From the NCBI GenBank assembly GCA_021790195.1, contig JAJYIF010000003.1, positions 62,001 through 126,000 of the forward strand: DNA of 64,000 bases, given 5' to 3'. A program made the translations under genes and the position numbers. Shown piece by piece: positions 43,312-62,024 of this stretch (position 1 is the stretch's first letter; every line of letters begins with the position of its first letter). This stretch comes from Nitrospirota bacterium. GTDB taxonomy: Bacteria > Nitrospirota > Thermodesulfovibrionia > Thermodesulfovibrionales > UBA9159. The notes beneath the pieces were generated by a model. That model did no database searches. It was given only the letters and a program-made list of their open reading frames with translations, and was not told the DNA's origin.

Positions 43312-43866
43312 TCAACTCTGTTTTGTCTGATTTGCACCGCAAGGCTTACAGCGACGGAGCAGGGCCACGGAAGAACGAAGGGCAAGATAGACCCTCGATC
43401 TGAGCAGGCTAACTGCCGCCAACAGATAATTTACCGCTCTCCATGCAGCCGCATTCATATCGAAAGTGCGCGTCGCCTCAATTCTGCTTACCTTGCCCAG
43501 GATATCGCTTCCGTCCACAGGTCCGTCAGTGGTCAGAAGGGCATCACCCTTTGTCTCAAAGGTTACCGCACCGTCATCGCGCATCGTCATTCTGACTATG
43601 CGGTGAACAACGGGAAGACCTTGGCGGTTCTTGAAAAGAACAAGGTCTCCTCTCCTCAGGGAGGAGTGCGGCGTCCTCCTTATGGTCAGGGTCTCTCCTC
43701 CTCTCAGAAAAGGCCTCATGCTCCTGCCGGTTACCTTCACGCGGAGAAGAGAGTCATCGCCCAGTATCTCTTCAAAGAGACCTGCAACCTCGATGCCTGT
43801 TCCACGAGACGGAGCGGAATCCCGGATGGACAATTTACTGTGCCGGCAGGAATTTCTCAAGGACAC
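43312..43866 (-). CDS. S26-family signal-peptidase-like protein in the RiPP-like locus
   Basis: This 184-aa protein has the signal peptidase fold, with nucleophile Ser in VTGRSMRPFLRGG (near 49), RRGDLVLFKNRQ and a His in VVHRIVR (near 88) where bacterial enzymes have Lys. The Ser-His pair is the SipW/ER type. Hydrophobic stretches near the C-terminus (VNYLLAAVSLL, RSSVALL) could attach it to the membrane. GAGG precedes the GTG at 43866, and it overlaps the HprK-like gene by 32 bp. In this locus it could cleave the precursor leader or process an exported product; that is inference. Confidence 0.75.
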   Translation of the reverse strand: MSLRNSCRHSKLSIRDSAPSRGTGIEVAGLFEEILGDDSLLRVKVTGRSMRPFLRGGETLTIRRTPHSSLRRGDLVLFKNRQGLPVVHRIVRMTMRDDGAVTFETKGDALLTTDGPVDGSDILGKVSRIEATRTFDMNAAAWRAVNYLLAAVSLLRSRVYLALRSSVALLRRCKPCGANQTKQS

Positions 43867-44734
43867 CAATCACCTCGTCGGAAGGAACAAAGTCAAGTTC
43901 ATAGGCCGGGACCCTCGAAAGCATTCCATCGCAAAAAAGAAGTATATCCCACATAATCCTTTCGTCGAACCATGGCACGGACGTCACGGAAAGGAGCCTT
44001 TCGAGTGCGCTTCTCCTGTCGATCTCTTTTATCTCATTTCCCTTGCCGTGACCGATGAAGAAGACGGCCGCAAGGTCTACGCCCTTATTCACGGCAATGC
44101 CGGCATCGCCGGGCCAGGGCGTCCCATATGCGCGAAAACCGGCGTCATTTCCCCTGACAATCATCCGGTCATCGCTCAGGATCTCTGCGACTTTCGATTT
44201 GGAGAACAGACGAGAAAGAGTGCTCTTTCCGGCACCTGAGCGGCCCAAGAGAATAAATCCCTTACCCCCGATGCTCATGCCCGCACCATGAAAGATCGCT
44301 CCGCCACGCTGCGCTAAGAAAAACATCAGGAGGATCTGGTCTAGCGGATAAAAGAAAGGGCTTAAGACCTTGCCCACATCCTCTCTTCCTGCGATAAACT
44401 CATCGCTGCAATACACGGTCACTTCCCGGAACTCCAAATTAAAGCGGGCCGCCCAAATAACCCGCCTATTCAAGAGGGGAGGATCAAGGACCATCAGGTA
44501 ATCCTTCCCGTCTGCAAACATTGACCAGGACTCACCCGTATCGAAGACTTTCCGCATCCTTTCCAAATCCGGAATGTGGTCCATCTCAAAAACTATAGGG
44601 ACATCTGATGACAGGCCGGCAATACCCGTTTTCTTCAGGAAGGATCCATATACGGAGGGAATTTCCCCGCTTATGTCGGGACCGCGGGAGGTTATACCGA
44701 AACTTACCTCGGCAATATCCAGATGAAGCGACAT
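43835..44734 (-). CDS. HPr-kinase-like P-loop protein, possible RiPP kinase
   Basis: This roughly 299-aa protein has a C-terminal HprK-like kinase domain: HGAG, Walker A GRSGAGKSTLSRLF (about 163-176), LSDDRMIV and the AYGTPWPGDAG loop. The N-terminal half is an unassigned alpha/beta domain. In paeninodin-type lasso peptide clusters HprK homologues phosphorylate the precursor's C-terminal Ser; both precursors here end in SSLGS. An ATG at 44734 after AAAGG is preferred. A GTG at 44791 would overlap precursor 1 by 23 bp. Kinase fold is clear; substrate is inference. Confidence 0.78.
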   Translation of the reverse strand: MSLHLDIAEVSFGITSRGPDISGEIPSVYGSFLKKTGIAGLSSDVPIVFEMDHIPDLERMRKVFDTGESWSMFADGKDYLMVLDPPLLNRRVIWAARFNLEFREVTVYCSDEFIAGREDVGKVLSPFFYPLDQILLMFFLAQRGGAIFHGAGMSIGGKGFILLGRSGAGKSTLSRLFSKSKVAEILSDDRMIVRGNDAGFRAYGTPWPGDAGIAVNKGVDLAAVFFIGHGKGNEIKEIDRRSALERLLSVTSVPWFDERIMWDILLFCDGMLSRVPAYELDFVPSDEVIGVLEKFLPAQ

Positions 44735-44768
44735 CAGCCTTTCGACAATACCATCCCTGGGCAGATTC

Positions 44769-44948
44769 CTACGAACCCAGACTCGATACACATACTCCCG
44801 TCAGACATCCCTGGCCTGCAACACCTCTCGGATCGCTGAAACCGGTCTTGCAGCCAACGCTCAGCACCTCCTCTGCCGCAAGCTCGATCAGTCTTAGCAC
44901 AGGCTTCTCATACTTCCGCTTCTGCCCTTCTTCCTCTTTACGCCGCAC
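44769..44948 (-). CDS. RiPP-like precursor peptide 1
   Basis: This 59-aa ORF starts at the GTG at 44948, 9 nt after GGAG and overlapping the radical SAM stop by 11 bp. The leader has YEKPVLRLIELAAEEVLSVG, the tail begins CKTGFSDPRG and has cysteines in GQGC and GVC, ending SSLGS. The leader-core shape resembles peptides bound by PqqD-type recognition elements. The last 38 residues differ from precursor 2 at 55281 in one position only (Leu for Arg in the leader). Three Cys and several Ser/Thr are candidate modification sites. No family member is confirmed. Confidence 0.8.
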   Translation of the reverse strand: MRRKEEEGQKRKYEKPVLRLIELAAEEVLSVGCKTGFSDPRGVAGQGCLTGVCVSSLGS

Positions 44949-46029
44949 TTCGGTCTTCTCCGATAAGCCGCTTCAGGATCAACTCATAACGGCGGCTGCC
45001 TATAGAGCACAGATACTCGGACCTGACATATTCAGATCCCGTCTCCATTTGAAAGAATGCCGGACAGGAACCGCAAAGGTATCTCTTTTCGCACTGGTTA
45101 CAGCGATCTTCAGCTCCAGCCTTCTTCCGGCGTATCTCTGCTATTACGCTATGCCACCCAGCAAGGAATCCCCCCTGAGACAGATCGAAACTCACGTCCT
45201 CCAACATAACGCAGGGTTTAAGCCTGCCGAACGCATCAATATGGAAACCCGTGAGGCCCGCACCGCAGTTATAGAGCTTGTCCGAGGTCTCCTCGCCCTG
45301 GCAGTCTCGGAAATACTTTTCCCAGCTCACAACCCTTTCGGGATCCGAGAACTCTTTTTCTACGGCCTGATCTGCGGAAACCCTGAGAGATAAGGGGGAC
45401 TTGTCTCCGCTCAAGCAAGGGAATATTGCGGCATCGAACCGGAATTTTACTCCCAGTCTTGCTGCAAAGGCCTCGATATCGGAAAACTCATGAACGTTCA
45501 GGCTCATCAAAATCGTCTTCAGTCTCACGCTTATTTCCCGCCCGATAAGGCTTCTGATTCCGCTGAGACATCTTTCATAGGAACCGGCAACTCCTGTGAT
45601 CCTTTCGTAAGTCGCCGGCGTCGATCCATAAAGGCTTATCTCAACGCAGCGCGGCGGCAAATCCTCAAAAAGGTCTAATATTTCATCAGAAAGCAACGTA
45701 CCGTTACTGAAGATAGTTATTACAAGGCCCCGCTTCTTTGCATGCCTGTAGATCTCCGGAAAGTCCTTCCTCAGAAGAGGCTCGCCCCCGGTAATAAGCA
45801 AGAACAGGCATCCGGCTTCTGTGATCTCATCGATAACCGACAGGACGCGTCCTGTATCCATCTCATTAAGCTCATTAGTTTGAGGCGGGACTCTGAGATA
45901 GCAATGGACGCACTTCAAATTGCATCGGCGGGTCAAATCGATCCCCCCTGATACGGGAATCCGATGCAGGGATGTCCTGGCGTTGAACTGCCGGATAAAT
46001 TCCCGGTTGCTTACGCAGGCCGTTGTCAT
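44938..46029 (-). CDS. Radical SAM/SPASM enzyme of the RiPP-like locus
   Basis: This 363-aa enzyme has the radical SAM motif CNLKCVHC (Cys36, Cys40, Cys43), ITGGEP for SAM binding and a SPASM domain with cysteines in YNCGAG, LKPCVM, RCNQCEKRYLCGSCP and SEYLC for auxiliary clusters. It belongs with peptide-modifying maturases. A PqqD-like gene lies 39 bp upstream and a precursor peptide overlaps its 3' end, so it probably modifies that peptide, for instance by a thioether or C-C link. Class is firm; chemistry is unknown. Confidence 0.88.
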   Translation of the reverse strand: MTTACVSNREFIRQFNARTSLHRIPVSGGIDLTRRCNLKCVHCYLRVPPQTNELNEMDTGRVLSVIDEITEAGCLFLLITGGEPLLRKDFPEIYRHAKKRGLVITIFSNGTLLSDEILDLFEDLPPRCVEISLYGSTPATYERITGVAGSYERCLSGIRSLIGREISVRLKTILMSLNVHEFSDIEAFAARLGVKFRFDAAIFPCLSGDKSPLSLRVSADQAVEKEFSDPERVVSWEKYFRDCQGEETSDKLYNCGAGLTGFHIDAFGRLKPCVMLEDVSFDLSQGGFLAGWHSVIAEIRRKKAGAEDRCNQCEKRYLCGSCPAFFQMETGSEYVRSEYLCSIGSRRYELILKRLIGEDRSAA

Positions 46030-46068
46030 AGTTCCCTATTGACTTTTTCTTCCCCGACGACCTTCTTC

Positions 46069-46374
46069 TCAAGGTGCGATCAAGTTCTCTCGCAAAAGCT
46101 CGTCTATGAAATCCCTGATATCGGCCTCTGCCTGCTCCTTCTCCACTTCGAAGTTTGCCATTACCCCGTTCCTAATGTCATTGAGACTTTTCTCTCCAAG
46201 CTCCTGCCAGATATATTCAGCAACCGCGTTCAATGCAAATATATGCTGCATGTCCGCCAGATTGCCTCTGATCGGGACAAGGAACAACTCGCCCGCGATA
46301 TTGCGGGATACCACATTCGCGCTCTTCCTGAACACCTTCTCCCAGATATCTTCGCCCGCACTCGCCGATCTCAT
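46069..46374 (-). CDS. PqqD-family peptide chaperone (RiPP recognition element)
   Basis: This 101-aa protein has the PqqD fold signature: VVSRNIAGELFLVPIRG, then HIFALNAVAEYIWQELGEKS and a final helical part (QAEADIRDFIDELLRENLI). PqqD-like proteins bind the leader peptide and present it to the radical SAM enzyme. It lies directly upstream of the radical SAM gene and 14 bp after the giant C25 gene. Confidence 0.85.
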   Translation of the reverse strand: MRSASAGEDIWEKVFRKSANVVSRNIAGELFLVPIRGNLADMQHIFALNAVAEYIWQELGEKSLNDIRNGVMANFEVEKEQAEADIRDFIDELLRENLIAP

Positions 46375-46388
46375 CTGATACCATTATT

Positions 46389-49300
46389 TTACCATAGCTT
46401 AAGCGCGGGGTCGCCGAGGAGGTTATATATGTCCAGGATATAAGAAGCTCCACCTGTGCTGCTATAATCTTTCTCCGCCTTCAATATCGCATCTCCCAAC
46501 ACTGCGCCTTTGACAAAGGCCCTCTTGAAAAAGTCCTTGTCAAGCACGACCGCAAAGGCATCAAGGGACAATCCGCTCGGCGCCCATACGGCCGCGGCCC
46601 CGCTTGCCTTCTTCACCACAAGGGACTCACCGAAAGAATCGTATCCGGGTATGGCAAACTGCCCGGCGCTGCAGGTCATGGCCGTAAGCACCGGGAGTTC
46701 CTGATTGGTCATGGATGCGACATCGGCAGAGGTCAGAAGCCCCTCGCCGGCCAGACGGTCCACCCCGCCGTGTCCTATGTAATTCATGAAACGCACCCCG
46801 CTGTTTAAGTCGCTAAAGAGCATCCTTCGCGCATCGACAATCCCATAAACGGACAGGTATATCTTGTCCACTACCGGATATTTAAACGGCACAAGGAGTG
46901 CAACATTGTCGCTGTCCAGGGGGAAATCGCCCCCCGAGTCTGCATTGTCGGCCATCATTACTACCCTGTTGTCCCTGACGCTCTCAAAGGCCTTGATCTT
47001 GTCCGTTACATCTTTAAGCTCCTGAGAGGTAAGGACAGGAAGCCTCCCTATCGCTATCTCCGGGACATGATCTCCGTTGACATCCACAAAAAGGTTGTCC
47101 GAAGGGAAAAGCCCCGAGGGTGTCTTGCTTATCAGGGGCGGCAGCAGGTCGTCGCCATGCCCAAGGTTGTCTTTGTAATCATATGTGCCCTCACCCGCAA
47201 GCACTACATACCTGGGAGGTTTGCTCCAATTCTTGTATGCGTACCAGATAAAGTCCCTTATGGCTACAGGACTCGATATCCCATAGTTGAATTCGTCCAT
47301 GATGTTTTCGAGACTCACTACCATGACTTTGAGTCCCTGCCCGCTACGGTACTTCGCAAGCCCCTGCGCAGCACTTACAAGACTGTCCGGGGTGATTACG
47401 ATATAGTCGGCCTTGTTGCCCCTTGAAGTGAGTCTTACCATGGCTGCCGTCTGAAGACTGCCGCAATTGTATTGCGTAAGACATCTCTGCCATGAGGTGG
47501 CCACGGCACCGGCTGCGTCGGCTGTCAGGGCTATATACCTCGCCCCGGGCACTGCGCCCATGAACCTGACGCTGTAGCCGCCTGAGGTATTGCTTATTGC
47601 CGTCTGCGTTACAAGCCTCGGGTTATAACCGTCCGTGACGTCCAATACCAGGATGCCGGGGTTCGTGAATCCGTCGATGGTAAAGACCTGCGCTGTATCA
47701 GATGTAAAGGCCAGGATGTTGCCTGCCGCCTTAAACTGCCTCTGATAGCTCAGGTCAAAGGAGTCTACATAGAAGATGCTGTAAGGCACCCCTGTGTCAA
47801 GCAGCCCGTCTACTTCAACTGTGTTGCCGCCTTCCTTCAGAAGACTTTGGTCAAAATTGAAAACGAGTGTATCCGCTCCGGTGCCCTTCCACCTGCCCTC
47901 CCCTATGACTGTGCCGTTAAGCTTTACCCTTGCATGATGGTCAAGGGCAACTCCTGCATCTGTAAAGCCCTGAAGCCTTACCGTCAGTGTCGCTGTGGAT
48001 GAGGCGTTTGATACTCCCGCTGCGTTTATGGTAAAGGTCTTTGCCCCCAGCGACGGGTCACCAGCCACTACGTAGTCCCAGAACCAATAGTCGCCCTCAG
48101 GATCAAGAAAGGCCGCAGGTACTAAAATATTGTCCTGCTCGGCATGCACTGTCTCGGTAAAGGTGCTGTATCCGCCCGATATATTGCCTCCGCCGTTTTC
48201 GCCGGCCATCCGATTGCCGCTTCCGGCATAAAGCCAGTATATGTTGTCCTTTGTGTATATGCTGTCTATGCCGCTTCCGTAAAAGTACAGCCCTGTATTG
48301 TCGCTCGCCGGCAGATACGCCACTATCTTCCCCTGACTGCTCAGCACTATGCGGCCGTCCCTTATGAACTGCTGCGCTACTGCCTGAGATACTCCCAACA
48401 GGCCCGCTATATGCCCTGAATCGATATAATAAATGCCTTCGCCCTCTATCGCTATCTTCGCTATCTTCCCGGATAAGGCTCCGGCTGCCTGGGCCCCACG
48501 CACTGCGCTGCTTTGCGCTTTCATAGAGGTTGCCATCATTGCCTTCACCATGGAGCCCATATGCGCCTTCCTCGTATACCCGGATATGCTGTCTCCTCCC
48601 CTCACTAACCCCGATTGGCTTACTATCTTTACCAGGGTCGCGCCGTCTTTGGCTTGAAGCTTCGTTATCTTCTCTATATGTTTATCAGGACTTCCATCAG
48701 ACAATAACCCTGCGTTTATCGCGTTTACGGTAAGCTTCCCCTGGACCTCCAATGTGTCCGCAATTACGGTGAAAGGTCCATATACGTTCTTCGTGCCCGT
48801 ACTCTCCACTTCCACAAGCAGATAAGTGTTGTCCCTGCGAATAGAGGCGCTTCCGTCTATAAGACTGTATGTCCCGCCCTGAGGTGAGGTCAATAGGGCA
48901 GGCAGCAATCTGCTGTTGATCCTCTTGTACTGCCCCGACCCTTCATCAAGCCTCATTAAATAAAAACCGGCCGTCTCATTCTCAAGCGCCGTCTCCCAAC
49001 TAAGCCTCAAACTCCCATTGTCATCAGAGGCGCTGAAACCGGAAAGTATTACACGCGTAGGTGTGATGCTTACGCAACTGCTGTTGTTGCTTGCGTTCGT
49101 ATCCGCAGGCGTCGATGACGTCAGAGATGCACAGTTCTGAACGGTCTGAGACAACCCGAGGGTCGTCGTTAACGTAAGTGTGGCGTTTCCCGCGGCCGTA
49201 TAGGATGCCCCGGACACCCACGCCGGAGCTGACTGCGCCGATGTCTGTACCCAATAGGTGGACCAACCCGACCCGGTTATGGGTCGATTGGCCGCAGAAG

Positions 49301-52300
49301 CCACATGATTAAGAATGCACTTGTATATGTTTCCGTCCGATCCGGTAACGAGTGAGGCGGCGGCCAAATTCCCCACGCTCCATACGCCCGTGCCGCTCGT
49401 ATATGTGCCCTGACTCGGGTTACTGGATACATAGGTCAAACCCGCAGGAAGCAGGTCGGTAACACTCACGGCGGTTTCATTAGCGGTCCCCACGTTTGTC
49501 GCAATGATAAGGAATTGTGCTTGGCATGAGCCGGCATAACAGGGAGAAGAGAGGCCCTGGAGACTCTTCGTTACGGCAAGATCGTTGGTGACACTGACGG
49601 TTACGTCTTCGGCAGTCGTGGCAGTTTCATCAAAAGGAAGGACCGTAAGAGCAGGGCTCGTGGCCGAAACAGCATTATTATAGGTCCCGGACGGCACTGT
49701 CGATGCAATGTTTGCAACAAACGTAATCGCAAGTGTATTATTGGGCGAAGTGCCGATGCTGCAGTTTGTCCATACAGGCTGGGCACTGCCGACAGAGGGG
49801 TATGATTGACATGTGGCGCCAGTCGGAGTGGTAGTGCTCGCATACGTAAATCCGGCCGGCAGATAATCCGTAACGGTCACTGTGCTCGCGGTAGATGTCT
49901 CATTTGTGAGCGTGATAGTATATGTGGCGCTCGTGCCGCCCGATGTGTTTATCACATATGGCGTGGAAGTTCTCTTGGTCAACTCGACTCCTCCGACAAC
50001 GGTCGTCGTAGTATTGGAGTTGAAGGTCGGAATTTCCGATGAACCCATTGTTGCGTAATTCGTATAGGTGCCTGTTGCAGAAGGCCGCACGCGAACTCTG
50101 AGAATTCCTGATGCGCCTGCAGGCACTGTTCCGAGGTTCCATGTGACTGTGCCGTTCGTATTGACTGGCGGGGCTGAAGCCGGGGCAGGAGAGGCAGAGA
50201 CATACAACATATTTGCCGGCAAAACATCGGACACCGTAACACTTGTAGCGTCAGCATTCCCGGTATTCTGGTAGGCCAGGTCATAGTTGAAAGTCCCGTA
50301 GATAGGCGTATTACTTTGCGGCGATACAGTCTGGTTAACCGTAACCGTATTGGCGTTCTTGTCCACCGCCGTCACGGTAACGGTAGCGGAGTTGTTATTG
50401 ATATAGATAACATCGCCCACATTGATATATTGTGCGCTGATCACACTGAATGTCGTCACATTATTTTGGTTACCATTCACTCCAGTCGCGACAGGATACG
50501 CAATTGCCGTAAGGCCATTCTTCTGGATACTCAAAACCGGAGCAGATGAGGCGTTAATTGCCGCAGTCGCATTTTTTGTGGCAGCGTTTGAGGCTGAGGC
50601 AGTCGCCGTGTTCGTGAGCGTCGTTGTCCCATTGAGAAGTTTAGAAGCTACTGTCACCCTGAACTTCATCGTCACCGAAGCCCCTTTGGCAAGTGTTCCT
50701 CCAGTAGATCCGTTAGCGCCCGTGCCGACAGCGAAGACAACCCTATTGTTTGCTGCATCAAAATAAGCGTTGTCGCTATCAAAAACGTCGCTCTGTGAGA
50801 GACCCTGATAAACGAGAGAGCCGCTCGTATAGGCCGTGTTCGAAGGAATTGGATCGGTAACAAGGACGCTTGAAGCATCGTTTCCTCCGATATTGGTCAA
50901 GTTAATCGTATATTCGAGCGTATCTCCCGGAGCCGGGGGGGCATATTGCTGGCCAGAGGCCCACGCACTCCCCCTGCATGAAGGGCATAGTTGCCAATAA
51001 TTTGACCAACTTGCGCCACTTACAGGCGCGTTAGCAGAACCCGATGTGTGCTTCGCAATACACTGGTAATAATTTCCGTCACTGCCCTGAACAACTGTAT
51101 TAGGATTTGTAATATCTGATACAGTTTTCGTCATCTGCAGGTCAGGATTCGGAGTAATTGAAACAGTTACAGTATTGCTCGTGACTGATCCGGAAGTGGC
51201 GGTATTGTCAACCGCTGTTACGCCCGCGGGCACGCCGGACGAAGCGACAGCCATCTGCAAGGTCACCGTTGCCGATGCCCCGGGGGTGAGAGTCCCTATA
51301 TTTAGATTTAGAATATTTCCAGAAACAGGGTCAGGGCTCACCGTCACATTGTTCAATTTTGTGCTGTTAGGCACATATGAGAAGAAGCTTGTGATCGAAT
51401 TATTATTCTCATCCTTTACCGGCAGCGCATCGGACACTGTAACTCCGCTCGCAGTCCCCAGGCCGCTGTTTAAGACATTGAACGTAAAGGTAACGGTGTC
51501 ACCCGGGAAGAGCTTTGTCTTATCAGCAGACTTGATTATCGAAATGATCGGACCGGTTATTACCTTTGTCATAACAGATGCCGGTAAGGGCTGTAGCTCG
51601 CTTGAGCTGATCTGTGCGTTGTTTAAAAGCTGGAAAATATTGGGAGGAAGGGGATTAGCTATGCCGGCATTTATCACCAGCGTCCCAGTGCCGCCGGCAG
51701 CCACAACTCCCGATGCCGCGCCCGATGAATGGACTTCAAAAGTTATCGTCTGGCTGCTTATGCAATATTGATTCAGTCCCACAATCGGACAAGTGCCGGA
51801 AGCCGTCATTGAGGTTCCGTTCATTGTCGCACTTACGAAGTTGACGCCTGTCGGAAGAGTATCGACAATCTGTGAGTTCGAGGTATTTGCCAGTCCGGAA
51901 TTGCTGAAGGTCATCGTGTATGTGATAGTGCCGCCTGCAGAAACCGTCAGGTTATTCTCGTCTTTTTGCAGCACAAGTTCGAGCGGCACAAGACACTGCC
52001 CCGAGCTGCTTGGATAGGTACTTCCATCATAATATAAGGTAATCCGGGTTCCATTTCCCGTATCAGAGAATATCCAGAGCAAACGATGGCCCTGGGCCAA
52101 TCTGAACCCTGCTGCCGGCGTAATCGTATCAGTATAGTTCTTTATGGACCCGGATAGACTGTCTCCCGGAGTCGAACCGATAAGTGCCTTTGTGCCGGTC
52201 ACGGGATCATAGTCATAGACATCTACATAAACATTTGCGTTTCCACCCTGAGTTGTTTTGGTAGCCCAGTAATTAATGGTAATGTTTCCGGCAAAGCTGA

Positions 52301-55037
52301 AAGCCGGGTTTAAAGCAGGGTCGGAATAGAATCGCATGAATTCGGTCTTTATCGTCCCGACCTGGGGTGTCATGAAAGACTGGTCGGTGCCCGACTGGGT
52401 CGTGTTTGCAATTAGCTGGCTGCCGTCGAAACCAACGTTAGTGGATTGGTTGTGGAAATAGTAATAGGATGAAGGTGTCGCACAGGTCTGAGAAGCCGAA
52501 TTTTCCCAGACTTGCGCGCTGCTTGAAATAGGGGAAATCTGATCCGAAACAATAGTTGCAGTATTTGTTGCAGGGCTGCCTCCAGTGAACGGGCTAGAGG
52601 CCTGTAGCGTAAGGTTGCATGAACCGGAAGTGTTGGCAGCCACAGTCCCTAAATTCCAGGTGACCACACCGCCGCTGCTTGACCCCGCAACAGGACAGCC
52701 CGGGCCTGATGGTGCGGAAACAAAGCTCCACCCTGTTGGAATCGGGTCGGTAATAACGACATTGGTGTTCGGAGACGTCCCGCTATTGATATATTTGATC
52801 GTAAAGGTCACCGGATTCCCCGGACTGAAGATTAAGGAGTTCGCCTCTTTAAGGATAGAGAGCGGCGTATTTATATATACCGTAACCGGAACGCTTGTGC
52901 AGGCGGTTGTCGGCCCTGTTATCGAGTTTATACAAACTGAATTTTGCAAGTCGGCCGGAGGTTTGTTGGAAGTGACATTACCGGCAATAGTAAGGGTGTA
53001 AGGACCTTCCAGGGAACCGAGGTAGCCGATATTCCAGGTTACCGTACCGGCAGAGGCATTATAAGTGCCGCCATTGGAGACACTGCCGACGATAAAACCA
53101 TTCGGAATGGTATCGGTAATCGTAACTCCATAGACATCGACAGGTGAATCGTTTGAGTAAGTGATTGTATATGTCAGGGCATCTCCGGGGTTTGCAAAAA
53201 ATTTATTAACAGTCTTCTGGATCGTCAGCCTCGGCGCGCCGACCCCTACATCAACCGGCTGGCTCGTGAGCATGCCCTTCTCGACGGTTAATGCGGTTGA
53301 TACATTCGAATATGTGCCTGTAACGCCTCCGACATTCGCAGTAAATATAAGTGTCCCGTTGCCTCCTGCGGGAATAGAAGCAGGAGCAAAATTCCAGGTT
53401 ACCGTGCCGCCTGAGCCTCCAGTCGGATATGAGGCAGGGGTAAGTGTGCCGCCGGTGGTGCTTACATAAGTAAATCCTACCGGTAGGATATCGCTTATAC
53501 TGTTTACCGTAAGAGGAATCGTATCATAATTGTTTATCGTAATCGTAAATATGATATTTTGACTTGCAAGCACATAAGCCGGAGATACGCTCTTGGTTAC
53601 AGTTGCGCTGACTCCGCAACCATTATTGAATGTCCCGTACACAACTCCCGGTTTGGGAGATGGATTTACGTAGTTAGGTGGAGTAGGATTCGGTGGAGAA
53701 GATAGATAACTGAAGGTTGTATGTCCGCTTCCGTCGGTAGCCTGGACTCCTATGAGATATTGCCCCTTAGGAAGAGAAGTTGAATCCCATGTATATGTCC
53801 ACAGCTGGGGAGATGTAATTGAATTTGTTCCAGACCCAATCAGCGTCCAACTGCTCCCCGTGTCGTTCGGAAGACCGTCATTGTTCTTGTCATAATAGTA
53901 ATAGAACTGAACACTCGTGAGTGTGGTTGCGCATGGCGGCTGAAGAGCTGATCTTACAGACGCGGTGAGCGTTGTCGGTCCGCATCCTTGGGCCGTCACC
54001 CAGTCCACGATAGGCTGTGGAACTATCTGGGGCGGCCCGCCACCCGCCGGGCATAATATGACCTGGTCTCCGAAAGGGGCGCATTGGTCCGGCGAGGCCA
54101 CGAAATTGATATTGCCCAGCGCAAGGTCTTTCTGAAACGGGTCGGTAATGCTGTTTGCCGTCGCAAACAATAATGCGCTCGGCTCGGAACAGTCGAAGGG
54201 AACCGGGCCGCCGCTCAGCATTGCCAGGGGAATCTGATAATCCACGAAAAACTCGTTGACGCCGAAATTGCTGCAAGGCGACGGGCTGTCGGTATTCGTG
54301 ATGTTAATTGACCTGGTCGTCCCATAGTCCCAAACCGTCTCCGCCGACCCGTTCGGCCAGATCGTATCGGGCGCTGCGCTGTTATGAAAGTTCAGGATAA
54401 TATTTGTTGCCTGATCAACAAAGGCCGTGGGGTTGGTAGCAAGCGGTGTTATCCCGACCGTATGGGGATCGATATACTGATTCAGCGTATTGCTGTAGAT
54501 TGTCCTCAATATGTCTATCGGAGCGCCCGGGCTTCCGGAAGATCCGTCCAGGAGCATTCCGAAGTCGCGGTAGCCGTCGCCGTTTGTATCCAGCAGAACC
54601 GTCCATAAGCCCGACCACCAAGGGTTGACGTTGCTATATGCGCCCGCGCTGGGGCCTGTTGCATAGTTGACCGGTATTTGTTCAACTCTCCACCTGAAAA
54701 AGAGTGTCTGAGAAGACGAGTCGTAATAAATGTAAACGCTCGGCTTTGTCATATCAGGACAGCCTGAACTCACATTCACGTAATTCTGAGGTCTCGCTCC
54801 GCCGTTTGAAGGATCGTTTGTTCTGGGATCGTAGATTGTCTGCCCCTGACTGGTATAAGGAATCCAGGCCGAATCTGCGGGCCATTTGACGGGCCCGAAA
54901 TTCACGCTGCAGGGCCAATAAGGCGACACACAGACGGGATATGCAGTTGCCGAACAAAAAAATGCAAGGCAAAGAAAGGCTACAGAAAACGACAGGACAA
55001 CAATATTTCTTCTATGCAGATAGGCGGATTCTTTCAT
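46389..55037 (-). CDS. Giant exported DUF11-repeat protein with C-terminal gingipain-type (C25) protease
   Basis: This protein has about 2882 residues and a signal peptide cleaved near CSATA-YPV. Its N-terminal beta-rich part (about 40-350) is unassigned. An array of DUF11 repeats (about 480-2050) shows the YTITYSN, LPAGFTYVS and VTWNLG blocks. Two carbohydrate-binding-like GSDGNxYxC modules are inserted (near 1318 and 1908). An FN3-like segment follows, then a C25 domain (about 2540-2882) with the catalytic His in NYIGHGG (about 2758) and Cys in TAMTCSAGQF (about 2794), ending NLLGDPALKLW. No sorting tail follows the protease. It lies inside the RiPP-like cluster, so it may process or display the peptide. 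The ATG at 55037 is preferred over 55055/55052. Confidence 0.85.
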   Translation of the reverse strand: MKESAYLHRRNIVVLSFSVAFLCLAFFCSATAYPVCVSPYWPCSVNFGPVKWPADSAWIPYTSQGQTIYDPRTNDPSNGGARPQNYVNVSSGCPDMTKPSVYIYYDSSSQTLFFRWRVEQIPVNYATGPSAGAYSNVNPWWSGLWTVLLDTNGDGYRDFGMLLDGSSGSPGAPIDILRTIYSNTLNQYIDPHTVGITPLATNPTAFVDQATNIILNFHNSAAPDTIWPNGSAETVWDYGTTRSINITNTDSPSPCSNFGVNEFFVDYQIPLAMLSGGPVPFDCSEPSALLFATANSITDPFQKDLALGNINFVASPDQCAPFGDQVILCPAGGGPPQIVPQPIVDWVTAQGCGPTTLTASVRSALQPPCATTLTSVQFYYYYDKNNDGLPNDTGSSWTLIGSGTNSITSPQLWTYTWDSTSLPKGQYLIGVQATDGSGHTTFSYLSSPPNPTPPNYVNPSPKPGVVYGTFNNGCGVSATVTKSVSPAYVLASQNIIFTITINNYDTIPLTVNSISDILPVGFTYVSTTGGTLTPASYPTGGSGGTVTWNFAPASIPAGGNGTLIFTANVGGVTGTYSNVSTALTVEKGMLTSQPVDVGVGAPRLTIQKTVNKFFANPGDALTYTITYSNDSPVDVYGVTITDTIPNGFIVGSVSNGGTYNASAGTVTWNIGYLGSLEGPYTLTIAGNVTSNKPPADLQNSVCINSITGPTTACTSVPVTVYINTPLSILKEANSLIFSPGNPVTFTIKYINSGTSPNTNVVITDPIPTGWSFVSAPSGPGCPVAGSSSGGVVTWNLGTVAANTSGSCNLTLQASSPFTGGSPATNTATIVSDQISPISSSAQVWENSASQTCATPSSYYYFHNQSTNVGFDGSQLIANTTQSGTDQSFMTPQVGTIKTEFMRFYSDPALNPAFSFAGNITINYWATKTTQGGNANVYVDVYDYDPVTGTKALIGSTPGDSLSGSIKNYTDTITPAAGFRLAQGHRLLWIFSDTGNGTRITLYYDGSTYPSSSGQCLVPLELVLQKDENNLTVSAGGTITYTMTFSNSGLANTSNSQIVDTLPTGVNFVSATMNGTSMTASGTCPIVGLNQYCISSQTITFEVHSSGAASGVVAAGGTGTLVINAGIANPLPPNIFQLLNNAQISSSELQPLPASVMTKVITGPIISIIKSADKTKLFPGDTVTFTFNVLNSGLGTASGVTVSDALPVKDENNNSITSFFSYVPNSTKLNNVTVSPDPVSGNILNLNIGTLTPGASATVTLQMAVASSGVPAGVTAVDNTATSGSVTSNTVTVSITPNPDLQMTKTVSDITNPNTVVQGSDGNYYQCIAKHTSGSANAPVSGASWSNYWQLCPSCRGSAWASGQQYAPPAPGDTLEYTINLTNIGGNDASSVLVTDPIPSNTAYTSGSLVYQGLSQSDVFDSDNAYFDAANNRVVFAVGTGANGSTGGTLAKGASVTMKFRVTVASKLLNGTTTLTNTATASASNAATKNATAAINASSAPVLSIQKNGLTAIAYPVATGVNGNQNNVTTFSVISAQYINVGDVIYINNNSATVTVTAVDKNANTVTVNQTVSPQSNTPIYGTFNYDLAYQNTGNADATSVTVSDVLPANMLYVSASPAPASAPPVNTNGTVTWNLGTVPAGASGILRVRVRPSATGTYTNYATMGSSEIPTFNSNTTTTVVGGVELTKRTSTPYVINTSGGTSATYTITLTNETSTASTVTVTDYLPAGFTYASTTTPTGATCQSYPSVGSAQPVWTNCSIGTSPNNTLAITFVANIASTVPSGTYNNAVSATSPALTVLPFDETATTAEDVTVSVTNDLAVTKSLQGLSSPCYAGSCQAQFLIIATNVGTANETAVSVTDLLPAGLTYVSSNPSQGTYTSGTGVWSVGNLAAASLVTGSDGNIYKCILNHVASAANRPITGSGWSTYWVQTSAQSAPAWVSGASYTAAGNATLTLTTTLGLSQTVQNCASLTSSTPADTNASNNSSCVSITPTRVILSGFSASDDNGSLRLSWETALENETAGFYLMRLDEGSGQYKRINSRLLPALLTSPQGGTYSLIDGSASIRRDNTYLLVEVESTGTKNVYGPFTVIADTLEVQGKLTVNAINAGLLSDGSPDKHIEKITKLQAKDGATLVKIVSQSGLVRGGDSISGYTRKAHMGSMVKAMMATSMKAQSSAVRGAQAAGALSGKIAKIAIEGEGIYYIDSGHIAGLLGVSQAVAQQFIRDGRIVLSSQGKIVAYLPASDNTGLYFYGSGIDSIYTKDNIYWLYAGSGNRMAGENGGGNISGGYSTFTETVHAEQDNILVPAAFLDPEGDYWFWDYVVAGDPSLGAKTFTINAAGVSNASSTATLTVRLQGFTDAGVALDHHARVKLNGTVIGEGRWKGTGADTLVFNFDQSLLKEGGNTVEVDGLLDTGVPYSIFYVDSFDLSYQRQFKAAGNILAFTSDTAQVFTIDGFTNPGILVLDVTDGYNPRLVTQTAISNTSGGYSVRFMGAVPGARYIALTADAAGAVATSWQRCLTQYNCGSLQTAAMVRLTSRGNKADYIVITPDSLVSAAQGLAKYRSGQGLKVMVVSLENIMDEFNYGISSPVAIRDFIWYAYKNWSKPPRYVVLAGEGTYDYKDNLGHGDDLLPPLISKTPSGLFPSDNLFVDVNGDHVPEIAIGRLPVLTSQELKDVTDKIKAFESVRDNRVVMMADNADSGGDFPLDSDNVALLVPFKYPVVDKIYLSVYGIVDARRMLFSDLNSGVRFMNYIGHGGVDRLAGEGLLTSADVASMTNQELPVLTAMTCSAGQFAIPGYDSFGESLVVKKASGAAAVWAPSGLSLDAFAVVLDKDFFKRAFVKGAVLGDAILKAEKDYSSTGGASYILDIYNLLGDPALKLW

Positions 55038-55196
55038 GAAGCTCGCTTCCATCACTAAGGTACTGCGAAAAAAATCGCGAAAAACAACGCCAGACTATTC
55101 TCGTATGCGCGGTCTGCCGAGGATTTGAAAGCCTTAACGGCATATAATCATTATTAAGGTTTTTTAATAAAAAGGCAAGATAAATATTATCTGAAT

Positions 55197-55225
55197 TGTA
55201 TAAAAAAGGCCGCATAACCTGACAA
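55197..55225 (-). promoter_or_regulatory. Promoter-like element ahead of the giant C25 gene
   Basis: TTGTCA (55225-55220) and TATACA (55202-55197) are separated by 17 nt on the minus strand, between precursor 2 and the giant gene. The gap also holds CCTTAA/TTAAGG arms near 55133-55160. The large gene may have its own promoter besides read-through from precursor 2. Confidence 0.45.
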
Positions 55226-55280
55226 TAAATCACTATCCTTACAAACTTGAACTGCAAGTATGCGCTTTTGTAGCCCATTC

Positions 55281-55457
55281 CTACGAACCCAGGCTCGATA
55301 CGCAGACACCTGTCAGACATCCCTGGCCCGCAACACCTCTTGGATCGCTGAAACCGGTCTTGCACCCTACGCTCAACACCTCTTCTGCCGCAAGCTCGAT
55401 CCGTCTTAGCACAGGCTTCTCGTACTCACGCTTCTGCCCTTCTTCCATATTATCCAT
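55281..55457 (-). CDS. RiPP-like precursor peptide 2
   Basis: This 58-aa ORF starts at the ATG at 55457, 6 nt after AGGAG. It begins MDNMEEGQKREYEKPVL, continues RRIELAAEEVLSVG, and has the same tail as precursor 1: CKTGFSDPRG, GQGC, GVC, ending SSLGS. The 27-residue tail is identical in both copies. It opens the minus-strand cluster and is 226 bp upstream of the giant gene, so it is the likely first cistron. Recent duplication or gene conversion explains the identity. Family unknown. Confidence 0.8.
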   Translation of the reverse strand: MDNMEEGQKREYEKPVLRRIELAAEEVLSVGCKTGFSDPRGVAGQGCLTGVCVSSLGS

Positions 55458-55806: not shown

Positions 55807-56805
55807 ATGAAAGACCTTGCCGGACGGTTGCTTATTGCATTGTTCTTGGTGTCGCTTGCTTCCTGCGCTTCAACCGATTCCGGCCATACCGTCATCAATT
55901 CCCCAGATAATCCAGGAATGGTGGTTGTTCCCAGGGGCTGGTTCTATATGGGCGTAAATACCGCTGACGTCTCCGACAGGCCGGAACACCGAGTTTATGT
56001 GGGGACCTTCCTGATGGACAAGTATGAGGTCTCTGCAAGAGATTTTGCGGATTTTTTGAACGCCGAGGGCAACCCCGACGACAAGTACTTCTCCGTTGAC
56101 AAATATTCAACGATTATAGGCGTCTCTTTGGTAAACGGGAACATGGCAGAGACACAGCATAATCCTGAGAAATATGTCCCTCGCGCCGGGCTGGAGGACT
56201 ACCCTGCCAACAATGTATCCTGGTTCGGGGCCGATGCCTACTGTCAGTGGAAAGGTAAGCACCTCCCCACTGAAGCCGAATGGGAAAAGGCTGCGAGGGG
56301 TAAAGACAAGAGGGCATATCCCTGGGGCAACAGCGCCCCCGACAGCACAAAGGCCGTCTATGACCAGAAATGGGAAGAGAAGGGCTTCAATGTTATGGCC
56401 CCGGTTGAGTCTCACCCTGCCGGCGCTTCTTATTACGGCGTTCTCAACATGGCTGGAAACGTATGGGAATGGGTCAGCGACTGGTATAAACAGAGTTATT
56501 GTGATTACTGTAACCCCGATATCGACCCTGGCTGCGTGAATTGCTATCCCGATATTCAGTATGGCGTTTGCGTAACTGCCAAAGGTCAGACAACCGCACA
56601 AGCGTCCGAATTTGTCGGGAACGTGGAGATGCCGAACCTGCTTCCTGTGAATAATCCGTCAGGGCCTTCCTACGGAAACTTCAAAGTCCTTCGCGGCGGC
56701 TCATGGTATGACAAATACGGCGACCAGACCATAAGAAGCACGTACCGTTACTGGTTCGACCCATCGGACAGGTACTTCAACACCGGGTTCCGCTGCGCCA
56801 AGTAG
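55807..56805 (+). CDS. Lipoprotein with FGE/SUMF1 (sulfatase-modifying factor) fold
   Basis: This 332-aa protein has a lipoprotein signal with lipobox LASC (Cys20). Its FGE-sulfatase domain (about 35-330) includes FLMDKYEVSARDFADFLN, VSWFGADAYCQWKGKHLPTEAEWEKAARG, GNVWEWVSDWY and VLRGGSWYDKYGDQTIRSTYR. True formylglycine-generating enzymes carry two cysteines around that RGGSW segment; both are absent, so it is probably a non-catalytic or different enzyme. A five-Cys insert (YCDYC to GVC, about 236-258) is unusual. It is divergent from the RiPP-like cluster. Confidence 0.85.
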   Translation: MKDLAGRLLIALFLVSLASCASTDSGHTVINSPDNPGMVVVPRGWFYMGVNTADVSDRPEHRVYVGTFLMDKYEVSARDFADFLNAEGNPDDKYFSVDKYSTIIGVSLVNGNMAETQHNPEKYVPRAGLEDYPANNVSWFGADAYCQWKGKHLPTEAEWEKAARGKDKRAYPWGNSAPDSTKAVYDQKWEEKGFNVMAPVESHPAGASYYGVLNMAGNVWEWVSDWYKQSYCDYCNPDIDPGCVNCYPDIQYGVCVTAKGQTTAQASEFVGNVEMPNLLPVNNPSGPSYGNFKVLRGGSWYDKYGDQTIRSTYRYWFDPSDRYFNTGFRCAK

Positions 56806-57443: not shown

Positions 57444-59801
57444 TCACTCCGCATGCCCGCCCTTTATCTCCTTCAATCTGTTCTCTGCATACTGATCCGA
57501 AGGGCGGAGTCTTAAAGCGTATTCATACTGAGCCATTGCTTTTTCCGTGACGCCGGTCTTCTCATATAGCTTCGCAAGTCCGATTCTCATTTCATAATCG
57601 GATGGAATTTCCCTTACCCCTTCCTCAAGCTTTGCGATGCCCTGCAAAGGCAGACCCATCTTATCGTACAAGGCCGCGATTCTCTGATAAATGTCCGGAC
57701 CTGCCATACCCGTTTTCTTCATTACGGACAGTGCGTCGAGGTAGGCCTGCACAGCGCCTTCCGGGTCCTCTATCCCCTCCTTATAGTTTCCGTACAGAAT
57801 AAGGCTCTCCGGATCCTCAGGTATGACGCTTCTCATCTCGGTCTGACTAAGCCCGCTTAAAACCATGGCAGTGATGAATTTCCTCGTATCCGAGGGATCG
57901 AGGGAGATCGCCGCCCTCATCTCCGCCTTTCCCTCATCCCTCCTGCCCTTTGAAAGAAGCCAGAGCGCGAAGTTCTTGTGTCTCCAGGCAGATGTCTGGT
58001 CATACTCGACTCCAAGTCTCATATACCTGTCCGCCAGGACGGACTTACCCGCACCTTCGAGACTCACGCCGAGCATCTGCAAGTACTCACCATTAACCGG
58101 GTTGAGTGAGACCGCCCTGCTATAATCTCTGACCGCCTCTTCCCTCTTTCCGAGAGCAAGATCGATATTGCCCAGGGCAAAGTTATACTTACCATCCAAA
58201 GGACTCAAGGCCGATGCCTTCTCCAATATCCGGGCCTTTGCCTTGAGAAGGTCCCTTCCTTCATTTGTCTGTCCGTTGGCCATCCGGAAGAGAATGTCGG
58301 CCCCTGCATTCAGAATAGGGAAGACCGAGACAAGTGTGAGTATTACAGCAACAGCCGCAAAAAAGAATGTGCGCCTTTCCCCGGGACGGATCACCTGCCC
58401 GACCTTCAGTGATGTCCCGTCTCCCTCGCCACCCGGCCTCATGTGGGACGCCGCTATGGAGAAGGCGAAAATCACTGTAAAGAATAGACCGTTGGCCCCT
58501 ATGTGGAGATTGAAATCCGTAAGACTGTGAATCAGCATCGCCGTAACACCCGACATGCCGCCGATGCCGAGGAGTCTCGGGCCGAGGGACTTTCTGCGCC
58601 CAAGCGACCTGAACATCAGCAGATAGAAAGAGACTATGACATAGACAGCCAGCGCCATCCCGGCGAGTCCGAGCTCGACCGCCCCCTCCACGTAATCGTT
58701 ATGCGCGTGTTCCCACCTTTCCGGAGCAAGGATTGTCTTATATCGCGGATAGACGTACTCATAAGTCCCAAGGCCCGTACCGAAGATTGGAAATGCCGCC
58801 ACTATCTTCAGGCAGTCCCTCCAGTTGTTCACCCTGAAATCGCTTGACACTTCCCTGATTCTCGTGCTCTCGAATTTCTGGACGATGGGTCGCCATCCGA
58901 ACCAGCCCACACTAAAAAGGACTACGAGAAATATGCTCACAATAACCCAACCCTTCTTCCTTGTGGAACTCTTGAGAGAAAGCATCATGCCGAAAAAAGC
59001 CATGGAAGCAGTCAGCCCTATAACTCCTCCCCTTGAAAGACTCAGGAAAAGAGACGTAGTCATAATTATCACGGCCATGCTTACAAGAATCAATCTGTTG
59101 GCATTTTCATGAGTTAGAAGATCGGACGCCAAAGCCCGGACCCCCTCCCCTCTTCTCACCGGGGGAAGAAGATAAAGACCAACTCCCACAGACACAGGAA
59201 TGACCATTTCCATGAGTCCCGCGAAATGGTTCTTGTTCAGATAGGGACCGAAGGCTGCGCCAATGTCAATATGACGCAACCAGAGCAGTTTCCCATTCCA
59301 TGAAATGACCTGAAAGATTCCCGTAACGGCCACAAGGCATCCGGAAGCGAGAATGGCCGCAGCCATCCCGAATACATGTTCGCCGTCACGCATGACCTGC
59401 ATCACCAGGAAATATGCGCACAGATAGGCGGCAAGCCTTATAACTTCCAGGAGAGTAGCCTGCGGATAGAGAGAGAGGGTGAGCCACGGCAGATTATCCG
59501 GGTTGGAGGCCACATCATGATAAATCTTATATGTCTCCGGTGATATTGTCTTGACGAGCATGGGCGGCAGAGGGATGAGCTGGAATATGGCCAGTGCCAG
59601 CAGCATGGCAAAGGGGATCAGAAAGGGAGGTTTTATAACATATGCAGGCAGATGATTGTCTTTCACGACTCCGAGCATCCAGAGAAGAAAAAGCACGAAG
59701 CAGGTGATCTCCATCACCGCAAGGGACCACGGCTCTACGGTGCCGAACATGAGGGGCGTGAGAAAAAGAAGAAGGACAAGTCCGCGTCGGACGGAATTCA
59801 C
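57444..59801 (-). CDS. O-antigen ligase/Wzy-type polymerase fused to TPR repeats
   Basis: This 785-aa inner-membrane protein has about ten membrane segments (1-500), with the Wzy_C domain and periplasmic motif EHAHNDYVEGAVELG near residue 360, and SLSRGGVIGL. The C-terminal third (about 520-785) is TPR repeats (LALGKREEAVRDYSRAVSLNP, EKAMAQYEYALRLRP). It would polymerise or transfer the exopolysaccharide repeat unit. It is downstream of Wzc and Wza homologues in one operon. Confidence 0.9.
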   Translation of the reverse strand: MNSVRRGLVLLLFLTPLMFGTVEPWSLAVMEITCFVLFLLWMLGVVKDNHLPAYVIKPPFLIPFAMLLALAIFQLIPLPPMLVKTISPETYKIYHDVASNPDNLPWLTLSLYPQATLLEVIRLAAYLCAYFLVMQVMRDGEHVFGMAAAILASGCLVAVTGIFQVISWNGKLLWLRHIDIGAAFGPYLNKNHFAGLMEMVIPVSVGVGLYLLPPVRRGEGVRALASDLLTHENANRLILVSMAVIIMTTSLFLSLSRGGVIGLTASMAFFGMMLSLKSSTRKKGWVIVSIFLVVLFSVGWFGWRPIVQKFESTRIREVSSDFRVNNWRDCLKIVAAFPIFGTGLGTYEYVYPRYKTILAPERWEHAHNDYVEGAVELGLAGMALAVYVIVSFYLLMFRSLGRRKSLGPRLLGIGGMSGVTAMLIHSLTDFNLHIGANGLFFTVIFAFSIAASHMRPGGEGDGTSLKVGQVIRPGERRTFFFAAVAVILTLVSVFPILNAGADILFRMANGQTNEGRDLLKAKARILEKASALSPLDGKYNFALGNIDLALGKREEAVRDYSRAVSLNPVNGEYLQMLGVSLEGAGKSVLADRYMRLGVEYDQTSAWRHKNFALWLLSKGRRDEGKAEMRAAISLDPSDTRKFITAMVLSGLSQTEMRSVIPEDPESLILYGNYKEGIEDPEGAVQAYLDALSVMKKTGMAGPDIYQRIAALYDKMGLPLQGIAKLEEGVREIPSDYEMRIGLAKLYEKTGVTEKAMAQYEYALRLRPSDQYAENRLKEIKGGHAE

Positions 59802-59847
59802 CGATTACTCTCCTTTGATCAAGGGGAAAAGCCCCGGCCGGGCTCAA

Positions 59848-62007
59848 TCAAGAAGTCTTTTCTTTCTCTTGCCTGTAGTCGTAATAATAGGGATACAGAT
59901 ACCTGTATCCCTCCTTCTTTGTATCCATGCCGTTAAGCACAGCGCCAAGTATCCTCGAGTTGGTATCACTCAGAAGCTTCATCCCGCGCTTCGCTATGTC
60001 GAAGGTCGTCTTTCCGCTCCTGATCACAAGGATGGTGCCGTTCACCACGGCCGAGAGTATCGTCGTATCGGTGACGGTGATCAGAGGCGCCGCGTCGAAT
60101 ATCACGACATCAAACCTCTCCATGACGAGATCGACGAAATCCTTCATCCTCTTCGAGCTCAGCAACTCTGAAGGGTTGGGGGGCAGCGGGCCGGACGGAA
60201 CAACGCTCAGATAGGGTATGTCGGTGGTCTTTATGACATCCTCGATCACGTGACGCGTCAGATAGCTGCTCAGGCCGACAGAGTTCTCCATGCCGAGCAC
60301 GCTATGGACCTTCGGCTTTCTCAGGTCGGCGTCCACGAGAAGAACACTCTTCTCGAGCTGCGCAAAGGCTATCGCAAGATTGACTGCCGTCGTCGTCTTG
60401 CCCTCGTTCTCGATAGAGCTCGTGATCACAAAACTCTTTACCGGATCGGCGGAAGAAAGAAGGATGCTTGTACGAAGTCCCTTATATGTCTCGGAGATGC
60501 TCGAAGTCTGGCTCGAATGCGCAACGAGCTCTATGGCCCCGTCGCGCAACTCTCCCTTCCTGACCGCGGGGATCACCCCGAGGAGTGGCAGGGAAAGCTT
60601 GCCTTCCACATCTTCCGGCGTCTTGAAGGTATTGTCGATATATTCCAGGAAAAAAGCTATGCCCACGCCGCCGAATGTGCCGGTTATGAGTGCAAGCAGG
60701 ATATTGAAGAACTTTTTCGGCTTGATCGGTCCTTTCGGAACTTCGGCCTTGTCGATAATATAGATGTTGAAAGACTTGACTTCCTCGGTCAGGCTCGTCT
60801 CCTTGATCCTCTTAAGAAGAGCGTCGTAGATCTGCTGGTTGGTGTCCACGTCGCGCTTAAGAACCCCGAAGTCTATCGATTTCTCGGACAGAGACATGGC
60901 CTCGCCCTTGCCCTGATTGAACAAACTCCTCAGACTCGCCTCCCTTGCAACCGAAAGCTCATACTCGTTCTTGATGGAAGCAATGACCCTCTTTGTCTCA
61001 TTGGCCAGCTTGTCCTTCAGCGCCTTGAGGTCTTCCTTAAGCCGGATCATCTGAGGATGTTTGTCACCGTACTTCTTCGACGTCTCCAGTATGCTTTTCT
61101 CCAGGCTTATCTCTTCAGCCCTCAGCGACTGGACAACCGAATCCCCGGCTATAGCAGGAACCGCCAGCGCGGCGGAAAGCTTGTTGGAAAGACCCTTCAC
61201 CTGATTGTACAGGTCCTCGGTCTCTCTCCTCTTCGTCTCCGCTACTATGAGCTGGGAACTCAAGGTCTGCAACTTTTGCGGCGTAACGGCCTCTTTATTT
61301 TCGAGCGCGACGATGTCCTTGTCCTTCATATATTCCTGAAGCGCCCTCTGCGATTGCTCCAGCTTCGACTTCTGCTCGTCGATCTTCTTGGTCATCCATT
61401 CCACCGCCTGTTTGGCGGAGCCCATCCTTATATCGAGAACCTGCTCCACGTAAGCGCTTGCAACGCCGTTGGCGATTTCGGCAGAGAGCCCGGCGTTCGG
61501 GCACTGGTAACTGATGTTTACGATGCGGCTGTTCTTGACGGGCTCTACAGAAAGACCGGCCTGCACCTTCCGCGCAAGAGCCAGGTCAAGAGAATCGTCG
61601 GCGGCAGCCGGCGCAGGCGCGCTCTTCGGTCGCGACAGGCCTATCCAACTCAAGATGCCGCCGATAATTCCTTCCCCGCTTTCTCCCGCAGCGGGATTGA
61701 ATTCCGGCCGTTTGGCGAGGTTAAGGTTCTTGACCACCTTCAGCGCTACGGCGGTGCTCTTTATCAATTCGTACTGCGTCTGATAATAGTCTTCTGAATA
61801 AAACGACTCATAATAAACGCCCCTCAGGTCCACAAGGTTCTGGTTCTCCTTGTCGATGAGTACCCTCGTGCTTGCCATATATATCGGCGTAGTCGTGAAG
61901 GTCCCCACAGCCACTATAAAGACGAGCACAACGAAAAAGGTGAGAGCGCTGTGTCTCCTTTTTAAAATGACCTTCCAGTAGTCCCTTAGATGAATCTCTT
62001 CCTGCAT
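59848..62007 (-). CDS. Wzc-like polysaccharide co-polymerase and BY-kinase
   Basis: This 719-aa protein has an N-terminal Wzz domain with two membrane helices (about 20-45 and 425-448), a long coiled-coil periplasmic part and a cytoplasmic bacterial tyrosine kinase domain. It has Walker A ENEGKTTT (about 530), A' VLLVDADLRKPK and B VIFDAAPL, and a tyrosine-rich tail (YRYLYPYYYDY) for autophosphorylation. It controls polysaccharide chain length and export with the Wza-like protein. Confidence 0.95.
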   Translation of the reverse strand: MQEEIHLRDYWKVILKRRHSALTFFVVLVFIVAVGTFTTTPIYMASTRVLIDKENQNLVDLRGVYYESFYSEDYYQTQYELIKSTAVALKVVKNLNLAKRPEFNPAAGESGEGIIGGILSWIGLSRPKSAPAPAAADDSLDLALARKVQAGLSVEPVKNSRIVNISYQCPNAGLSAEIANGVASAYVEQVLDIRMGSAKQAVEWMTKKIDEQKSKLEQSQRALQEYMKDKDIVALENKEAVTPQKLQTLSSQLIVAETKRRETEDLYNQVKGLSNKLSAALAVPAIAGDSVVQSLRAEEISLEKSILETSKKYGDKHPQMIRLKEDLKALKDKLANETKRVIASIKNEYELSVAREASLRSLFNQGKGEAMSLSEKSIDFGVLKRDVDTNQQIYDALLKRIKETSLTEEVKSFNIYIIDKAEVPKGPIKPKKFFNILLALITGTFGGVGIAFFLEYIDNTFKTPEDVEGKLSLPLLGVIPAVRKGELRDGAIELVAHSSQTSSISETYKGLRTSILLSSADPVKSFVITSSIENEGKTTTAVNLAIAFAQLEKSVLLVDADLRKPKVHSVLGMENSVGLSSYLTRHVIEDVIKTTDIPYLSVVPSGPLPPNPSELLSSKRMKDFVDLVMERFDVVIFDAAPLITVTDTTILSAVVNGTILVIRSGKTTFDIAKRGMKLLSDTNSRILGAVLNGMDTKKEGYRYLYPYYYDYRQEKEKTS

Positions 62008-62024
62008 GTCTTACCTCTAAGCCG

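Follow-up and report, generated by a model that had tools for sequence, protein, structure and literature searches.

Why does a small peptide-modification cassette carry the gene of a giant exported protease, and what would that protease do there? The question is raised by a cluster in a Nitrospirota genome of 3.3 Mb, of which we analysed a 64-kb stretch (contig JAJYIF010000003.1, positions 62,001 to 126,000; hereafter the window). The cassette genes are all on the minus strand and encode, in order of transcription, precursor peptide 2, a giant protein with DUF11 domains and a family C25 peptidase domain (C25), a PqqD-family protein, a radical SAM/SPASM protein, precursor peptide 1, an HprK-like kinase and an S26 peptidase. 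A preliminary description, made from the sequence alone, had listed these parts on one strand as a cluster resembling those for ribosomally synthesized and post-translationally modified peptides (RiPPs). The arrangement was confirmed at the coordinates tabulated below, and the assignment was borne out by the short precursors, the conserved leader, the variable core and the presence of a RiPP recognition element (RRE) together with a modifying enzyme. C25 itself is almost certainly a functional member of the cassette.

We compared 86 related loci, arranged in a radical SAM tree of 86 rows. Relatives were sampled by a radical SAM scan of GTDB contigs, in 396 genomes of the window's phylum and in 289–350 genomes around three other centres; further loci were viewed as 20-kb stretches where contigs permitted. 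The loci were picked by radical SAM score, and the fractions given here describe this radical SAM family rather than bacteria generally. The contig scan returned loci in Auribacterota, Chloroflexota, Acidobacteriota and Lentisphaerota, most of them with C25 beside the cassette. The window fell in a 39-row radical SAM clade (support 100/99) covering at least five phyla, and C25 was found in 35 of the 36 decidable loci of this clade, adjacent and upstream in most; the sole decidable member without it was L133. Three loci (L009, L067 and L135) were cut by contig ends and were undecidable for C25. Contig ends were rechecked, and apparent absence in some loci proved to be an artefact of where the stretch ended. 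C25 lay farther out in L108 and about 11 kb away on the opposite strand in L105, and an open giant reading frame in L139 was cut by the contig end. The co-occurrence of peptide and C25 in other genomes, proposed earlier as a check, is thus found across the window's clade, of which C25 is a conserved member.

Outside this clade, C25 was located downstream of the HprK/S26 genes in several separate clades. The 396 genomes comprised 19 with both C25 and radical SAM, 11 with radical SAM only, 13 with C25 only and 353 with neither (Fisher p = 1e-16, a value that ignores genome kinship and is not a clean probability; linkage is the stronger argument). Across 52 loci the distances between C25 domains were correlated with those between radical SAM proteins (Mantel r = 0.82, permutation p = 0.0001), with nearest neighbours agreeing in only 20 of the 52 and shared species history adding to the correlation. 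L081, and L080 with L142 (window's phylum), nested among Acidobacteriota-type cassettes in both the C25 and the radical SAM trees, indicating that C25 and the cassette were transferred jointly. The window's C25 belonged to a 43-row C25 clade (support 100/99) in which 3 rows were unlinked to a cassette, two of them on very short contigs.

The cassette was also observed without C25, in about 12–15 loci of sister clades. One group of the window's phylum lacked C25 (L068–L071 and L073–L079), and C25 was found in 0 of 5 outgroup loci with several radical SAM genes (L082–L085 and L087), which are the loci that look like SynChlorMet clusters. No uniform substitute for C25 was found in the C25-less loci; some carried an ABC exporter. 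The dependence looks one-sided, in that this C25 lineage is seldom found away from the cassette and the cassette is often found without C25. According to the preliminary description, regular occurrence of the peptide set without C25 in relatives would mark the protease as a bystander. Such occurrence was not observed in the window's clade and was observed in the sister clades; the wider family therefore does not require C25.

In the giant protein, Peptidase_C25 scored 266 bits against a Pfam cut-off of 23, and DUF11 was matched in 10 stretches; this is the one C25 gene of the window's genome. The catalytic His and Cys were invariant in 80 of the 80 C25 domains alignable there, and five partial matches that do not cover the catalytic region stand outside this count. 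The stalk varied by locus, with DUF11 in the window and SdrD_B, GEVED, LTD or Ig-like domains elsewhere, indicating that conservation in the giant protein resides in its protease domain. DUF11 was accordingly ruled out as the key feature, and in the earlier idea of a display scaffold the DUF11 stalk would be the unconserved part. Among solved structures, PorU (6za2) was the closest relative of the C25 region and the gingipains were next; the likeness covers the catalytic domain with its His and Cys and the PorU-like region that precedes it. Unlike PorU, the protein reached only 239.9 bits on NF033707 (cut-off 420) and matched no model of the C-terminal signal of type IX secretion. A search for SprA gave no match in the window's genome, and control genomes likewise gave none. 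We know of no PorU or gingipain encoded within a RiPP cassette. An S1-pocket comparison based on an alignment to the solved structure of gingipain R left the specificity unfixed. Beside C25, a jelly-roll resembling CBM36 and BcsB domains was seen in a low-confidence model (pLDDT 60) and is a hint only. Two further loci showed other arrangements: in L147 (1464–12130) a 3192-aa C25 protein stands beside an HprK-like gene, with the full cassette elsewhere in that genome, and in L156 (8893–14457) genes for PqqD, an HprK-like protein, C25 (803 aa) and S26 lie on one strand at the contig end, with radical SAM outside the view.

The two precursors, the only copies in the window's genome, are 95% identical across their aligned part. 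Over the whole length 13 codon differences are synonymous and 6 non-synonymous; from IELAAEEVL to the C-terminal GS the differences are 11 synonymous and 0 non-synonymous, indicating that both are protein-coding and that their cores are under purifying selection. The position of precursor 1 between the radical SAM and kinase genes is kept in most relatives, and no extra precursor copy 5' of the protease was seen among the relatives examined. Tandem or multiple precursors, often with unlike cores, were observed in L072, L074, L075, L119 and L138. The 90 precursors compared shared a YxxP leader and a CK boundary and had variable cores; the leader motif, [Y/W]xxP, is the one bound by lasso-type RREs. 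A CX4C core was present in 30 of the 38 precursors of the window's radical SAM clade. Among 89 complete precursors, which are kin and not 89 independent events, the C-terminal residue was Ser in 79 and Thr in 6 (85 of 89 together), whereas the residues around the terminus varied widely. In L014, L121, L122 and L124, on the Chloroflexota side, the conserved Cys is not followed by Lys and the terminal Ser/Thr is mostly missing; kinase and C25 are present in these loci.

The PqqD and radical SAM genes were adjacent in nearly all loci. The sole solved-structure match of the PqqD protein was the lasso RRE TbiB1, and the closest solved relative of the radical SAM protein was SkfB; the CxxxCxxC triad and the C-terminal cysteines were invariant across the radical SAM alignment. 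The HprK-like gene remained under every curated sequence cut-off (Hpr_kinase_C, 15.7 vs 33.3), and its predicted fold (pLDDT 82) matched PEPCK/HprK structures; H168, the P-loop K189 and the Asp pair 207–208 were kept in most relatives. In lasso precursors the C-terminal Ser is the residue phosphorylated by PadeK, which carries a His-Lys-Asp-Asp motif (PMC9266682), and by analogy the HprK-like kinase likely phosphorylates the terminal Ser here. The S26 protein scores above the cut-off of the archaeal signal peptidase I model, its SM and HR motifs, with the conserved Ser and His, are kept in relatives, and S26 proteins of the LppS type were present in cassettes both with and without C25. LppS, an archaeal-type signal peptidase I, cleaves the leader of LPPs, as deletion demonstrated (PMC13381572). 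Because the LPP leader is removed by such an enzyme and the window's S26 passes the same model, S26, not C25, is quite likely the leader peptidase of the cassette.

The enzymology thus looks like that of paeninodin and LPPs with radical SAM replacing the lasso cyclase, a reading that places the enzymes nearer to known systems than the preliminary description implied. With LPP clusters (Popov et al. 2026, PMC13381572) the cassette has in common a YxxP leader, a discrete RRE, an HprK-like kinase, an archaeal-type signal peptidase I as leader peptidase and, as with many cassettes here, nearby polysaccharide loci. However, that paper has no mention of radical SAM or of C25; LPP clusters contain an NTP transferase and an MsbA-like exporter, neither of which was found in the window's cluster; only YxxP is shared with the LPP leader consensus YxxPxVLxHQxIxFETxxS; and LPPs, described from Bacillota, are phosphorylated on Ser3, not on a terminal Ser. 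The paeninodin lasso systems (PadeK/ThcoK; PMC9266682) share the [Y/W]xxP leader, the RRE, an HprK-like kinase with His-Lys-Asp-Asp, the C-terminal Ser and nearby polysaccharide loci, whereas the lasso cyclase C and the B2 leader peptidase were not found in the cluster here, which has radical SAM instead, and no C25 protease is described in paeninodin clusters (PMC9266682). SynChlorMet clusters are similar in having PqqD, an HprK-like protein, radical SAM and small peptides; membership was rejected, with ScmC, ScmD, ScmE and ScmF at 24.4/125, 27.3/100, 94.7/400 and 68.4/400 bits, all far under their cut-offs. The sactipeptide maturases SkfB and AlbA share the radical SAM/SPASM architecture and a cysteine-containing core, but the window's radical SAM protein is under the curated cut-offs and thioether chemistry is here a prediction. 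To our knowledge, the SkfB and AlbA systems contain no kinase or C25.

Starting from the gene set, its conservation and linkage, the catalytic residues and the terminal Ser/Thr, all of which are read from the sequence, we infer the chemical steps and the contact between C25 and the peptide as follows. The RRE would bind the YEKPxL leader and present the precursor; the radical SAM/SPASM protein would cross-link the cysteine-containing core through a thioether or similar bond; the kinase would add a phosphate to the C-terminal Ser; and S26 would take off the leader. The C25 protein would be exported separately via Sec on its long variable stalk and, outside the cytoplasm, would trim the exported peptide or, in the manner of PorU, attach it to a surface component. 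In this scheme the RiPP cassette has spread horizontally and has a C25 protease of its own that works outside the cytoplasm; we judge the scheme to be evenly poised. That C25 processes or attaches the peptide is a tentative reading slightly short of that, which we rank first among the roles of C25, followed by control of C25 by the peptide. A rather unlikely extension is that the cassettes represent a RiPP class of wide distribution whose peptide, cross-linked and phosphorylated at its terminus, is attached or processed at the surface by a dedicated PorU-like C25 transpeptidase, sortase-like and outside type IX secretion.

Conserved catalysis on an exchangeable stalk, together with the apparently one-sided dependence, is what an extracytoplasmic enzyme with the peptide as its substrate would show, and it also suits a protease controlled by the peptide. 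Several observations weigh against the scheme. The C25 region was modelled with low confidence (pLDDT 60), the precursors have no signal peptide, and no transporter gene was found among the window's cassette genes (10 other loci carry an ABC exporter). The Anaerolineaceae-type group named above (L014, L121, L122 and L124) bears C25 and mostly lacks the terminal Ser/Thr, and Lys/Arg after the conserved Cys is missing there and kept in C25-less loci. Since sister clades make similar peptides without nearby C25, C25 processing cannot be general. A somewhat unlikely alternative is that the peptide serves specifically to inhibit, activate or otherwise bind C25, which would be its client. Genes of secreted cysteine proteases are in some cases accompanied by genes of small inhibitors, and this precedent, the exchange of the stalk around a retained catalytic domain and the occurrence of the cassette without a C25 that itself rarely leaves it (3 of 43 rows) all suit such control. 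However, the C25-less clades retain the leader, the kinase, S26 and the terminal Ser, so the peptide needs another purpose there, and the cores differ greatly among loci with similar C25 domains.

Processing or attachment was further weighed against a role of the giant protein as the target or scaffold that bears the peptide, for instance through a covalent or polysaccharide-linked bond. The large exported stalk, the common exopolysaccharide neighbours (Wzc-like in 13 loci, Wza-like in 10) and the jelly-roll of the low-confidence model are consistent with this, but variable stalk domains beside invariant catalytic residues point to enzymatic activity, not display alone, and we consider it distinctly unlikely. 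That C25 is the leader protease which frees the core, as had also been suggested, is very unlikely: leader removal in RiPPs is known from proteases of several families and most precursors have Lys or Arg after the conserved Cys, but an S26 of the proven LppS type (PMC13381572) accompanies the cassette with or without C25, and a C25 protein of about 2900 aa is exported whereas the precursors have no export signal. A gingipain-type cut after the conserved CK was likewise unsupported, CK being kept equally in C25-less loci. A mere bystander in the operon, for which the C25-less cassettes of sister clades would speak, is scarcely credible and largely refuted; against it stand linkage in 35 of 36 decidable clade loci and at least five phyla, the occurrence of C25 in two gene orders, its joint transfer with the cassette and the correlation of distances.

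The features of the cassette are listed below. The GTG start of precursor 1 overlaps the radical SAM stop codon, and 225 bp separate precursor 2 from the protease reading frame, an interval in which a promoter and terminator scan gave no signal beyond chance. A start of the kinase gene at GTG 44791 overlaps the precursor, and ATG 44734 is the more likely start.

Table. Genes of the cassette in order of transcription (positions within the window).
Feature	Coordinates	Strand	Remarks
Precursor peptide 2, 58 aa	55281..55457	-	leader YEKPVLRRIELAAEEVLSVGCK, core ...GCLTGVCVSSLGS
Exported giant protein, 2888 aa	46389..55055	-	signal sequence (by eye), ~10 DUF11, PorU-like region, Peptidase_C25 at residues 2551-2887
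PqqD-family RRE, 101 aa	46069..46374	-	PF05402 55.1 bits, cut-off 23.4
Radical SAM protein with SPASM-type C-terminal cysteine cluster, 363 aa	44938..46029	-	PF04055 84 bits, cut-off 29.5
Precursor peptide 1, 59 aa	44769..44948	-	between radical SAM and kinase genes
HprK-like kinase	43835..44734	-	probable start ATG 44734; longest open reading frame from GTG 44791
S26 signal-peptidase-like protease	43312..43869	-	TIGR02228 56.7 bits, cut-off 51.85; predicted leader peptidase

On the 3' side of the cassette are apparent PPDK, rpsO and pnp genes, and on the 5' side a SUMF1/formylglycine-enzyme-like lipoprotein is encoded divergently (55807–56805, plus strand). Exopolysaccharide genes (ligase-like, Wzc-like, Wza-like and outer-membrane protein) adjoin the cassette at 57444–63993. 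Another radical SAM/SPASM protein is encoded at 2471–3523 (minus strand), distant from the cassette, and two more PqqD genes occur in the same genome (loci L001 and L002), one beside a radical SAM gene and the other beside a weakly HprK-like gene.

The earlier statement that the gene set is undescribed agrees with the full-text literature searched, which held nothing relevant and from which subscription papers and preprints were mostly absent. The known part is the RiPP logic of the paeninodin/LPP type, here with a radical SAM enzyme; to it is added the protease partner, for which no precedent was found. A gene set that recurs in at least five phyla links radical SAM and phosphopeptide RiPPs with gingipain/PorU-type proteases, fields that are unconnected in the literature searched. 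The role of phosphorylated RiPPs near polysaccharide loci becomes directly testable because the peptide is here accompanied by one definite extracytoplasmic enzyme.

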